From contig NZ_CP107960.1 of the NCBI RefSeq assembly GCF_036077095.1, positions 1,426,001-1,490,000 on the forward strand: DNA of 64,000 nt, read 5' to 3'. Below, one piece after another: positions 29,051 through 32,212 of this stretch. Made by a program: the position numbers and the translations under genes. The DNA is from Streptomyces sp. NBC_00376 (GTDB lineage: Bacteria; Actinomycetota; Actinomycetes; Streptomycetales; Streptomycetaceae). The notes beneath the pieces are model-generated. The model saw nothing but the letters and a program-made list of their open reading frames with translations. It did not search any database and was not told where the DNA came from. Numbering within the stretch: the stretch's first letter is position 1; every line of letters starts with the position of its first letter.

Positions 29051-32000
29051 TCAGCGGCGGCCGTCGTACGGCCGTCCGGTACGTTCCCGCCCTCTGCGCA
29101 GGTCCGCGCGGATCAGGCGGCTCACCGGATCGATCAGCCGGCGGGCCAGTTCCTCGATGTCCGCCCCGGTGACCCGGTGCGCGGCCGGCGGGTCACCGGT
29201 GGCCGAGGCGTCCGGTCCGGTCGGGGTGGGCCTGCCCGGCGGCTCGGCGCGCTTCACCGGGGCCGCCCGTACCGGAACGCCGGTGATCCCGGCGTCGGCC
29301 GCCGCGCGCTGGAGCACCTCGGCGGTGGCGGCGGAGGCACGGGCCCCGGCAGCCTGAGGCGGACTCGGGGACGGCGTCGGATTCGGAGGCGGAGTCTGTG
29401 CGCGTTGTGGAATCCGTACCGCCAGGGCCGGAGGTCCGGTGGGCGCGGACATGGCGGACTCTGGCACCGGTCCGGTGGTCGTGGGGGCGGCCGATTCCGG
29501 CACCACCGGGAATGCCATCCGCTGTACGGGTACGGCTGCTGCTCCCGGCCGGCCGGTACCGGGCGGATGCGGGCGCACGACCGGGACCGGCCGGGCGGCG
29601 GACGGCGCGGAAGTCACGGCGGACGGCGCGGACGGGATGTCGGGTACGGGACGGCGTGGCGCCGGGGGCGGCGGTGCGGAGTGTGGCTTTGCGGGGCTCT
29701 GCCCCGGGGAGTGCACGTCCGGCTGCGACGGTGGCGTTGTCACGCTGCCGCGCGGCGAACGCTGTACGAGCCGCAGGAGCGAGCGGGCTGCCGCCGGTCC
29801 GCGACCTGGACGCCGGTCGGGCTTGGTTCCGGTTCCGGTTTCGGTCCTGGATTCGGTCCCGGTCCTGGATTCGGTCCCGGTCCTGGATTCGGTCCCGGTC
29901 CTGGATTCGGTTCCGGTCCTGGGTCCGGTCCCGGTCCTGTATTCGGTCCCGGCTCCGGCTCCGGTCCGCGCGACGCGGCCGGGGGCACCGGCGGGGGTGC
30001 GGTCCGAGGGCGTACCGCTGCTCGGGATGGTGCCGGTCGACGGGCGTGCGGACACGAGGCGTTGGACGGTCCCACCCGGCCCCGCGCCACCGGGCGTCGG
30101 CCCGCCGGGAGCCGAGGGCCGGGGTGCGGCGTCCGGCTGTGTCCGGTGTTCCCCGGTACCCGCGTTCCCGCGCGCCGGCGACGGCGACGCGTCACGCCCG
30201 GACTGCTGTGCATCACGGCGCCAGGTGGCTGCCACGACCGGCCGGGCCGAGCTGCCCGCCGCCGTGGGCGCCGAAAAGCCCTCGGCGGAGCCGGTGCTCA
30301 CGTCCAGGGCCCTGCCCGCGAGGAGGGCCCGCGAGCGCTGAACGACGGATGCCGATCCCCCGGGGCCGACCGCAGCCCCGGCTGCCGGCCCCTTCTCCCG
30401 CTCCGGGGTGATCCTCCGCACACGTACCGGCGCAGCGGGAGCGGAAGGAGACACGGATGGGGGCTGGGTGTTGAGAGGGGTGTTCGGACGTGTGGTGTCT
30501 GCCGCGTGCTGGACGGCGGCAGGTTCCGGCGTGGACGCGCCGGGCCGAGCGGGCGCTCCGGACGAGCGCACCGGCATCTCGGCAGGCGTGTTGAGAACCT
30601 TCGATGCCGGATCGGCCGGTGCCGGTGCCGGTGCCGGTGCCGGTGCCGGTGCCGGTGCCGGTGCCGGTGCCGGTGCCGAGGACGAGGACGAGGACGAGGA
30701 CGAGGACGAGAGCTGGAGCGGGGCCGCCCCGGGCTCTCCCGCCGACGCCGTGTCCGGCCGAGGGGCCGCACTTCCCGGCTGCGCCCTGCGGCGGTCACCG
30801 AGCAGCGGTGCGTCGCTCCGGAGCCTGGCGGTCGACGGAAGCGAGGTGAGGGGGGCACCGATACCGCCACGGGTACGAGCCGGTGAACCGGACACATCCG
30901 GCTGAGAAGGCCGCGACGGTTGTGACCGCTGAGACGGCTGAGGTGACCGAGATGGCTGAGATGGCTGCGACAAGTGCGGAGCCTGCGAGGGCTCCGATGA
31001 CCGTGGAGCCTGGGCCTTCGGGGCTCGACCGTCCGAGGGCGGCGGCTGACGCACCGACGGCTTCGCCGCCTCCGCTGCCGTCTCCGACGCCTGGCGTTGC
31101 AACACGGGCATGCCCGCCGGCTCTTGCCCTGCCGGGGCGGAAGGCACAACCCCGCCCGGCGCCGTCGAGTCGGCGGCGACCGCCCCGATGGGCAGCTCCC
31201 GCAGGGGCTTGCCCAGAGCGGGACGTACCGGTGCGGCAGCCGGCTGATCAGCGGTGCGGTCCGTTGCCGGGGCAGCGGCGGATGTGGTGTCGGCAGTGGC
31301 GACGGAAGTGGCCGGCGCGGAAGCCGCGGAAGCCTCGGAAGGCAGAATCCCGGCGATCTGCCGCAACGCCATAGCCGGACGCCGGGCCACGATCAGGGGC
31401 GGGGCGGTCCGCCGAGGCCGTACGGCGGCGGGCCGGGCGCGCTGGAGCGAAACCTGTGCCGGTGCGGTGCCCGCGGGCTGCTGCGCCGCCGACGCGGCGG
31501 CCGGAACCCGAGCCGCGTCCGTTCCCGGAACCGGGGCCGTTCCCGGAACCGAGGCCGATGGTGTTCCGCTCGCCCGCGCCGTGCTCCTGGCCGGGGCCGC
31601 CCCTGCCGTGGATTCCCGCGTGGTCGCACCGCCGATGCGGCTCTGCCGCCCCGGTGTCCCGCTCCCGGAGGAGCGAGTGGTCGTCGCACCGCCGGACCTC
31701 TGAACGGTCTCGGGAGCCGGCCTCCCGCCCGCCGCGGATTCCGCCTCCCCGTCCGTCCCGGTCCGGGCCGCACGCAGCAGCAGCGGTCCGCCGGGAGCCG
31801 TGGACCGCGCGCCGCCCGGACGGGCGACGCCGTGGATCAGGCCCACCGGTGCTAACGGCAGTACGGCATGGCCGAGTTCGCCCGCGAACGCGAGGTTCTG
31901 CCACGAGGCGAGGCCGTCCCGGAACCGCAGACCGTCGCTCACCCCGATCGAGGACCGGGCGACGGTCACCGCCGGCGGTGCGACCCGCCGCCAGCCGCCG

Positions 32001-32212
32001 TCCCAGCCACCGTCCCGACCGTCTTCCCCCGCGCCACCCGGGCCGCCGTCCCGCGGACCGGCCCCGCTGTCGCTCCGGCCGGCCTCCGGTTCCTGAGTGA
32101 CGGCGGCAGCGACGGAGCCGGTGCCGGTCACGTCCCCGTCTCCGGACCCGTCCCGGGAGGGCGTTGGGGACTGCCGGCGGTCCCCTCGGCGGAACCAGTT
32201 CCCGAGACCCAC
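29051..32212 (-). CDS. 1053-residue repeat-rich disordered CIS protein with QR motifs (candidate tape measure or lumen protein)
   Basis: I do not recognise a named family. An ordered N-terminal patch (residues ~72-130: WRRVAPPAVTVARSSIGV, GLASWQNLAFAGELGHAV) is followed by ~880 residues rich in Pro, Ala, Ser, Thr and Arg. A helical C-terminal tail (ADIEELARRLIDPVSRLIRADLRR) ends the protein. Eight (V/L)QR motifs are scattered along it (e.g. VSLQRARPA, ASVVQRSRALL, GTVQRLVSARP, VPVQRMAFPV, EVLQRAAADAG). Low-complexity tracts include an 11-serine run, alternating Ala-Pro and RTGTES repeats. It lies inside the structural operon between DUF6760 and tube genes, where no other tape-measure candidate exists. 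GTG start at 32212 with GAAGG upstream. Role inferred only. Confidence 0.75.
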   Translation of the reverse strand: MGLGNWFRRGDRRQSPTPSRDGSGDGDVTGTGSVAAAVTQEPEAGRSDSGAGPRDGGPGGAGEDGRDGGWDGGWRRVAPPAVTVARSSIGVSDGLRFRDGLASWQNLAFAGELGHAVLPLAPVGLIHGVARPGGARSTAPGGPLLLRAARTGTDGEAESAAGGRPAPETVQRSGGATTTRSSGSGTPGRQSRIGGATTRESTAGAAPARSTARASGTPSASVPGTAPVPGTDAARVPAAASAAQQPAGTAPAQVSLQRARPAAVRPRRTAPPLIVARRPAMALRQIAGILPSEASAASAPATSVATADTTSAAAPATDRTADQPAAAPVRPALGKPLRELPIGAVAADSTAPGGVVPSAPAGQEPAGMPVLQRQASETAAEAAKPSVRQPPPSDGRAPKAQAPRSSEPSQAPHLSQPSQPSRSPQPSQRSQPSRPSQPDVSGSPARTRGGIGAPLTSLPSTARLRSDAPLLGDRRRAQPGSAAPRPDTASAGEPGAAPLQLSSSSSSSSSSSAPAPAPAPAPAPAPAPAPAPADPASKVLNTPAEMPVRSSGAPARPGASTPEPAAVQHAADTTRPNTPLNTQPPSVSPSAPAAPVRVRRITPEREKGPAAGAAVGPGGSASVVQRSRALLAGRALDVSTGSAEGFSAPTAAGSSARPVVAATWRRDAQQSGRDASPSPARGNAGTGEHRTQPDAAPRPSAPGGPTPGGAGPGGTVQRLVSARPSTGTIPSSGTPSDRTPAGAPGRVARTGAGAGTEYRTGTGPRTGTESRTGTESRTGTESRTGTESRTETGTGTKPDRRPGRGPAAARSLLRLVQRSPRGSVTTPPSQPDVHSPGQSPAKPHSAPPPPAPRRPVPDIPSAPSAVTSAPSAARPVPVVRPHPPGTGRPGAAAVPVQRMAFPVVPESAAPTTTGPVPESAMSAPTGPPALAVRIPQRAQTPPPNPTPSPSPPQAAGARASAATAEVLQRAAADAGITGVPVRAAPVKRAEPPGRPTPTGPDASATGDPPAAHRVTGADIEELARRLIDPVSRLIRADLRRGRERTGRPYDGRR
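29845..29952. repeat. 18-bp tandem repeat, six units, in-frame
   Basis: Six copies of an 18-bp unit (TCCTGGATTCGGTCCCGG on the plus strand) run head to tail. The first three are identical and the last three carry one to a few substitutions. The unit is a multiple of three, so copy-number change alters protein length without frameshift; on the coding strand it reads as the RTGTES repeat of the 1053-residue CIS protein. Confidence 0.9.
30618..30710. repeat. adjacent hexanucleotide arrays encoding (AP)n and poly-Ser
   Basis: Ten perfect GGTGCC units (30618-30677) abut five GAGGAC units plus GAG (30678-30710). On the minus strand they encode alternating Ala-Pro and a serine run in the 1053-residue CIS protein. 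Perfect hexamers of this length are prone to slippage, and any gain or loss keeps the frame. Confidence 0.92.

Follow-up and report, generated by a model that had tools for sequence, protein, structure and literature searches.

The analysed stretch of DNA, hereafter the window, comprises 64,000 nucleotides of the genome of Streptomyces sp. NBC_00376 (contig NZ_CP107960.1, positions 1,426,001 to 1,490,000), and the gene considered here encodes a protein of 1053 amino acids (aa) within a contractile injection system (CIS) operon (29051..32212; all features are given in window coordinates and lie on the minus strand). Genomes are designated below by G-numbers and loci by L-numbers, the 10 Mb genome of the window being G000. 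The operon contains, in this order, the genes for a sheath (33340..34869), an inner tube protein of the gp19 type (32860..33300), a 163-aa protein (32372..32863), a 52-aa open reading frame (ORF; 32217..32375), the 1053-aa protein, a second gp19-type tube protein in the position of a tube initiator (28569..28994), a LysM hub adaptor, a VgrG-like spike, a PAAR protein, a gp25-like protein and a baseplate J-like protein. The closest solved relatives of the sheath are the CIS sheaths 8bky and 9gtp, which are structure entries from work on the Streptomyces coelicolor CIS, and the putative tube initiator is a relative of 9gtp chain a. The 1053-aa gene is a single ORF with a GTG start. Its description in the initial annotation, made from the sequence alone, as a Pro/Ala/Ser-rich ORF with eight (V/L)QR motifs inside the structural operon was confirmed by the ORF call, the motif count, sequence shuffling and the amino acid composition.

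The order sheath, tube, chaperone, -1 ORF, 1053-aa protein, tube initiator and hub parallels that of phage P2, where E, E' (an annotated -1 frameshift), the tape measure gene T, U and D are found. Because this gene order follows that of P2-like phages, the 1053-aa gene, located between a tail assembly chaperone-like gene and the tube-initiator and hub genes, occupies the tape-measure slot. Like the phage tape measures P2 gpT and lambda gpH, its product is very long and is encoded after a chaperone with a -1 extension and before the hub genes. For the 163-aa protein, the tail assembly chaperone family PHROG 508 gave a match with an E value of 1.2e-4. At E values up to 1 (best 5e-7) this family matches 13/13 Streptomyces chaperone members, and at E values up to 0.1 (best 2e-8) it matches 31 of 32 diverse ones. 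Pfam gave nothing above its cut-off for the window's 163-aa protein, the families Gp41_Mu and T4_baseplate each matched one chaperone member, and a tblastn search of the 163-aa protein against phages gave no match. The structure model of this protein has a mean predicted local distance difference test score (pLDDT) of 75.

The 52-aa ORF belongs to DUF6760 (52.9 bits, cut-off 27), overlaps the chaperone gene in the -1 frame and has a GTG start that overlaps the chaperone stop codon. At the junction lies the heptamer GGGGGAA (32378..32384) in the codon phase G GGG GAA, which is a predicted programmed -1 frameshift site; the predicted chaperone-DUF6760 fusion has 215 aa. The same heptamer is the slip motif described for about a thousand actinobacteriophage genes, at which the second tRNA re-pairs through G:U (PMC10885494; articles are cited by PMC number, for the portions of their text that were available). 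The junction CGC CTG GGG GAA TCG TGA CGT ACG was identical in 99/99 distinct sequences from 108 loci, and is thus invariant over at least 24 bases centred on GGGGGAA, while the codons outside it vary. In 32 loci of the class (L216-L247, three of them Streptomyces) the heptamer is kept in 17, with a run of at least six G in two more, and in 15 further loci of the phylum (L292-L306) it is kept in six. Four of the 17 class loci (L219, L230, L237 and L244) have a DUF6760 frame without ATG, GTG or TTG before the core, and in L229, L232 and L239 this frame has no start codon within 45 bases of the junction; frameshifting therefore seems to be needed in these seven loci. Eight class loci have the chaperone and DUF6760 as separate genes with their own starts. 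The sole phage match of the 52-aa ORF was weak (E 2) and was located in Pseudomonas phage PG1, exactly between a 'tail assembly protein' (Phage_TAC_7) and a 'tape measure protein'; the intervening stretch was related to DUF6760 with a pairwise profile probability of 86 and a Pfam E value of 0.0035, under the cut-off. The similarity between P2 E' and DUF6760 was weak (18 columns, probability 52). In viral contigs, the exact junction pattern was found in six stretches, all without a chaperone, and a profile scan detected six loci with a chaperone, two of which (L309 and L310) have GGGGGAA.

The length-measuring protein of phage lambda is the binding partner of gpG, and the tube subunit is that of the T part of gpGT (PMC5009743). 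The 163-aa protein and its -1 DUF6760 ORF upstream of the 1053-aa gene resemble lambda G/GT, P2 E/E' and the actinobacteriophage chaperones, and differ from the phage chaperones by their location in a bacterial CIS operon, by the C-terminal CPxC tail of the 163-aa protein and by frameshifting that is predicted. A chaperone pair retained in a CIS should serve some client, and it is the 1053-aa gene that follows directly; we therefore propose, from sequence and gene order, that a phage-type tail assembly chaperone has the 1053-aa protein as its client and that this protein stands in for the tape measure of the CIS, with a probability that we put at roughly 0.57. The chaperone module, that is, the PHROG 508 match together with the -1 DUF6760 junction, is the addition of this analysis to the earlier finding. 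In such an assembly the 163-aa chaperone would coat the 1053-aa protein, in the manner of lambda gpG, and the rarer 215-aa fusion would recruit tube subunits to it, in the manner of gpGT. The C-terminal helix may dock at the tube-initiator/hub end, with the floppy middle of the protein lying in the tube lumen, and tube length might then follow from chain length. The module also suggests that bacterial chromosomes may retain a programmed phage frameshift within a machine that has been domesticated.

The 1053-aa protein consists of 18% Ala, 16% Pro, 11% Gly and 10% Ser, and on the basis of this composition it is probably disordered; its charge-hydropathy index is borderline, just on the ordered side (0.437 vs 0.429). 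An alignment of 20 orthologues from the window's group places the N-terminal patch (residues 83-132, approximate bounds; 31817..31966) and the C-terminal helix module (residues 1017-1052, ADIEELARRLIDPVSRLIRADLRRGRERTGRPYDGR; 29057..29164) among the best-conserved parts; an ordered N-terminal patch and a helical C-terminal tail had been noted before. The start of the protein, MGLGNWFRRG (32183..32212), is also conserved, and the orthologues of the same slot have in common an amphipathic, MG(L/F)xxxLRR-like N-terminal start and the C-terminal helix. A second recurrent motif, G(K/A)PLxxLP, is located at 31190-31219 and 30836-30865 and is kept in orthologues. The conserved amphipathic start could also belong to a protein that acts outside the finished particle, as an anchor or a factor in assembly that binds, for instance, the membrane, and the absence of the counterpart of the 1053-aa protein from the modelled gene products of S. 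coelicolor (see below) fits this; however, the slot and the chaperone module point inward and the DUF4157 fusions described below point to the particle, so that we consider such a role improbable.

Among 60 Streptomyces loci around the tube initiator both flanks were available in 58, of which 55 have a C-terminal helix of this kind, in a few cases on an ORF that is broken or truncated; the helix model was derived from orthologues that belong to this set, and the fraction 55/58 is therefore not independent. No helix match was obtained in L045, L087 and L088 of the 58, nor in L133 and L180 of a second locus set (L106-L185). In L045, whose tube initiator and sheath are 99% and 100% identical (210 residues compared) to the solved chains, the orthologue is split over frames in its assembly. 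In the second set, 26 of the 80 loci have no chaperone or tube initiator on the stretch, and 24 of these 80 public loci begin within 1 kb of the tube initiator on its upstream side, in most cases because the contig ends there, inside the orthologue region; the low-complexity orthologue gene seems to break assemblies. From 107 candidates found by position, 11 broken, N-filled or uncertain ORFs (L039, L064, L075, L085, L119, L135, L137, L149, L152, L160 and L166) and 3 duplicates were removed, which left 93 distinct Streptomyces orthologues of 581-1486 aa, the length varying by clade. In the class as a whole, the 163-aa chaperone is present in 43/345 genomes and 18/126 genera. An orthologue identified by its C-terminal helix, which ends in (E/R)ERxG or a similar sequence (hereafter the C-helix protein), was recovered beside the tube initiator in 24 of the 32 class loci, upstream of it in 14 and downstream in 10; L218, L229, L230, L237, L241 and L247 end too early to judge, and L235 and L236 were outside the assessment. 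The C-helix protein was further recovered in 7 of the 15 phylum loci, of which L293, L295 and L300 end early and L294, L302 and L304-L306 have no recognised C-helix ORF. When the C-terminal stretch of one orthologue was searched against 5.8 billion proteins, 152 candidates were scored and one was found. Two overlapping contigs of a viral collection (L312 and L313) contain the chaperone pair and a 396-aa protein that is not Pro/Ala-rich and has a similar C-terminal helix, and the family may reach other phyla.

Several observations weigh against the assignment of the 1053-aa protein to the place of the tape measure. It has no match to any tape-measure family of Pfam, NCBIfam or PHROGs, and a long helical or coiled-coil body is not indicated, as judged from the distribution of proline only: it has 16% Pro and a longest Pro-free run of 38 aa, while the two phage tape measures used as controls have 2-3% Pro and runs of 151 and 211 aa. 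As neither homology nor a helical body was indicated, the protein was not filed as a tape measure. In ten class loci the C-helix protein comes after the tube initiator and not before it, and in L217 the slot contains less than 200 aa. As for the chaperone module, the slip motif is missing from L223 and L234, which retain a chaperone-like gene. In most GGGGGAA loci, that of the window among them, the stop codon of the chaperone is overlapped by a GTG or ATG, so that coupled re-initiation is an alternative to frameshifting there. In a triple effector mutant of S. coelicolor that lacks sco4256-4258, the particles are wild-type-like and most of their lumens are empty (about 85%, n=73; PMC10066040), which argues against a bulky lumen protein, while a few thin chains might escape notice. 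The S. coelicolor cryo-electron microscopy model has 9/19 gene products (PMC12237407), and judging by locus tags the counterpart of the 1053-aa protein is not among them; from locus-tag order we infer that the counterparts of the 1053-aa protein, DUF6760 and the chaperone are SCO4249, SCO4250 and SCO4251, an assignment seen in no record. Orthologue length showed no clear constraint: for the compensation of segment lengths, the ratio was 0.18 (P 0.028) in the window's group, where one pair may be misaligned, and 1.10 (P 0.90) in the S. coelicolor-like group, whose lengths drift freely without compensation and for which only four anchor blocks were available. A third group gave 0.21 (P 0.16).

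Nevertheless, no other tape-measure-like gene was recognised among the translated ORFs of the cluster by eye and with Pfam, as the initial annotation had suspected when it stated that no other gene of the cluster could serve this purpose, and the chaperone pair and the -1 junction point to the 1053-aa gene. A coiled coil like Sle1 of Streptomyces lividans was likewise considered as the ruler and rejected, none being recognised among the cluster ORFs scanned in this way. Related Streptomyces CISs are stated to have no tape measure (in the available portions of PMC10066040, PMC12237407 and PMC10286715), and the S. coelicolor particles are of identical length, with 61 sheath and 60 tube layers (PMC12237407). 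In S. lividans, the loss of Sle1/2 leaves no apparent structural defect, according to the accessible text of PMC13277306. No earlier statement of the present finding was met in the literature searched (DUF6760, CIS with tail assembly chaperone, disordered tape measures; most subscription journals were outside the search), where the only mention of SCO4249 was as PhoP.

The QR motifs begin with V at residues 170 (31697..31705), 624 (30335..30343), 716 (30059..30067), 816 (29759..29767) and 896 (29519..29527), and with L at residues 256 (31439..31447), 371 (31094..31102) and 967 (29306..29314). Their number is exactly eight, against a mean of 0.42 and a maximum of 5 in 20,000 shuffles of the protein. 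The motif codons differ (CAG/CAA for Q; CGC/CGG/CGT/AGG for R), and the repetition is therefore at the protein level. The 93 Streptomyces orthologues contain 1263 [VLI]QR motifs, where 31.7 are expected, with at least five in each; these counts, the shuffles and the variable codons rule out a chance or DNA-level origin. In the 20 aligned orthologues, the motif Q is identical in 53% and the motif R in 70%, compared with 12% for other Q (n=30) and 43% for other R (n=102). The motif at residue 967 has Q and R 100% identical and that at residue 371 has 100% Q and 95% R, whereas four of the eight, at residues 256, 624, 716 and 896, are weakly kept (Q in 35% or fewer). The motif consensus, derived from 51 orthologues, is P-x-V-Q-R-(A/S)-(A/V/T). 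In 64 of the 91 Streptomyces orthologues with at least six motifs, the spacing is more even than random placement (P<0.05), with the reverse (P>0.95) in none, and gaps shorter than 15 residues make up 1% in the 93 orthologues, compared with 19% for an exponential distribution.

Even spacing, the arginine and the co-variation with DUF4157 described below would also fit processing sites, at which the chain would be cleaved into fragments by a protease, possibly DUF4157 with its HExxH domain; however, the same motifs flank DUF4157 itself, and the effect of one effector is reported to be independent of its metalloprotease motifs (PMC11297309), and we regard processing as very improbable. Outside the Streptomyces set, some families have nine or more motifs and others have 0-5. 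Within the genus, the orthologue of L246, outside the set of 93, has three motifs, and L087 and L088 have a Pro/Ala-rich ORF with 0-1. The motifs are thus lineage-specific and therefore not a core function, and a universal role is ruled out. The suggestion that they serve as an essential docking device is not supported by these counts. As for the expected conservation in orthologues, it was found for the C-terminal helix and, in the 93 Streptomyces orthologues, for the QR motifs, which are lost or rare in other families and in L087/L088; the loss that the initial annotation had named as refuting its proposal was thus encountered in part.

The link of QR-like motifs to DUF4157 proteins of extracellular CISs, mentioned in the initial annotation, was substantiated as a tendency. 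Small CIS-linked DUF4157 proteins, encoded 3-21 kb from the chaperone or sheath, have 3-4 [VLI]QR motifs in nine genomes, one of which, G145, has a broken orthologue. The DUF4157 proteins of four genomes from one family have none, and the C-helix protein there has 0-2. The numbers of motifs in the two proteins are correlated, with a rank correlation of 0.84 over 14 genomes and of 0.73 (P 0.04) over 8 families, phylogeny being only crudely allowed for. Open-frame lengths were used for this comparison, and G145 (broken), G749 (no DUF4157), G600, G653 and G701 (no usable pair) and G557 were left out; in G557 the C-helix protein has 2 motifs and DUF4157 has 0. A DUF4157 domain is fused inside the C-helix protein in G239, G390 and G514, which represent three lineages, and is absent from the 1053-aa protein of the window. 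The C-helix protein of G749 has five QR motifs and no DUF4157 match, which again weighs against our proposal, and the 2246-aa Tme-like DUF4157 ORF of the window's genome has one QR motif only; the link is therefore a tendency.

The link ties the 1053-aa protein to the cargo-loading part of the machine. It is possible, although rather unlikely, that the 1053-aa protein is a lumen-loaded cargo or cargo adaptor related to the DUF4157 effectors, with VQR as a loading signal and without a role in length. The shared motif, the co-varying counts and the three fusions agree with this, as does the co-elution of the DUF4157 protein Sle2 with the tube initiator in S. lividans (PMC13277306). A cargo role does not account, however, for the tail chaperone and its retained -1 junction ahead of the 1053-aa gene, and G749 does not fit it either; moreover, tape measures can also be cargo, and the two roles are not exclusive.

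Two known systems can be compared in this respect. Tme of Streptomyces davawensis, a tapemeasure-related DUF4157 effector, resembles the 1053-aa protein in its large size, in its disorder (about 70% in Tme) and in being encoded in a CIS operon upstream of the baseplate genes, and DUF4157 is present in three orthologues of the 1053-aa protein; Tme differs by its transmembrane and coiled-coil segments and its nuclease domain, and effectors of this type resemble tape measures (PMC11126660). Sle1 and Sle2 of S. lividans are a CIS cargo and its DUF4157 partner (PMC13277306), and the small CIS-linked DUF4157 proteins found here bear VQR; in contrast to the 1053-aa protein, Sle1 forms a coiled coil and its gene lies upstream of that of the sheath (PMC13277306).

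The motifs, about one per 60-70 residues, could be short adhesive sites that the 1053-aa protein has in common with DUF4157 cargo partners in Streptomyces and some relatives. Extending our proposal of a chaperone client in the tape-measure place, we offer the tentative and rather doubtful suggestion that this CIS family sets an exact length with a disordered Pro-rich tape measure, delivered by a chaperone with programmed frameshifting and registered by evenly spaced VQR motifs, the same motifs being a docking code for DUF4157 cargo. If true, such a ruler would differ physically from that of phages, which is a helical coiled coil. For the Streptomyces CISs, which are stated to be without a tape measure although the S. 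coelicolor particles are uniform at 60 tube layers, a candidate gene and a likely chaperone can be named, and a short motif is offered by which clients of the machine may be marked.

The genome of the window contains a second such CIS (L037, G000:C1:4229000-4249000), with a sheath 63% identical and an orthologue of 592 aa, and the 1053-aa and 592-aa orthologues in one genome provide a natural length comparison. The orthologue of Streptomyces hyderabadensis, closely related by its tube initiator, has 1357 aa, and those of the close relatives L107-L118 have 1280-1433 aa; set against the 60 layers of S. coelicolor, 1357 aa correspond to about 22.6 aa per layer, from which about 47 and 26 layers would be predicted for the two orthologues of the window's genome. 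A third CIS (L102 and L103, G000:C1:1098000-1128000), called Tme-like by its 2246-aa DUF4157 open frame, differs from the locus of the 1053-aa protein by the absence of the chaperone pair: no chaperone, DUF6760 or C-helix match was obtained in the 30 kb examined, which speaks for our proposal, the effector of such a CIS being itself of a kind that resembles tape measures. Sheath-like pieces at G000:C1:8554562-8555154 (L034 and L036), one with an in-frame TAG, are perhaps a degenerate CIS remnant.

Downstream of the tube initiator, the operon continues with the LysM/CIS_tube hub adaptor (27773..28495), the VgrG-related spike (26010..27911), an ORF with a PAAR protein in its last third (25630..26517), an ORF containing the gp25-like baseplate wedge protein (25208..25813) and an ORF containing the baseplate J-like protein, whose true start is further in (23247..25385). 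CIS cap and ATPase genes were not located in the CIS region of the window, the plus-strand ORFs upstream of the sheath being outside the scan. At the end of the operon, the second part of an open frame (21420-22913) encodes a zinc-ribbon Pro-rich protein with a hydrophobic segment, in what we take to be the place of CisA. Immediately upstream of the sheath, an immunoglobulin-like protein with one hydrophobic segment is encoded (35352-36671), relatives of which are located close to the sheath in many loci.

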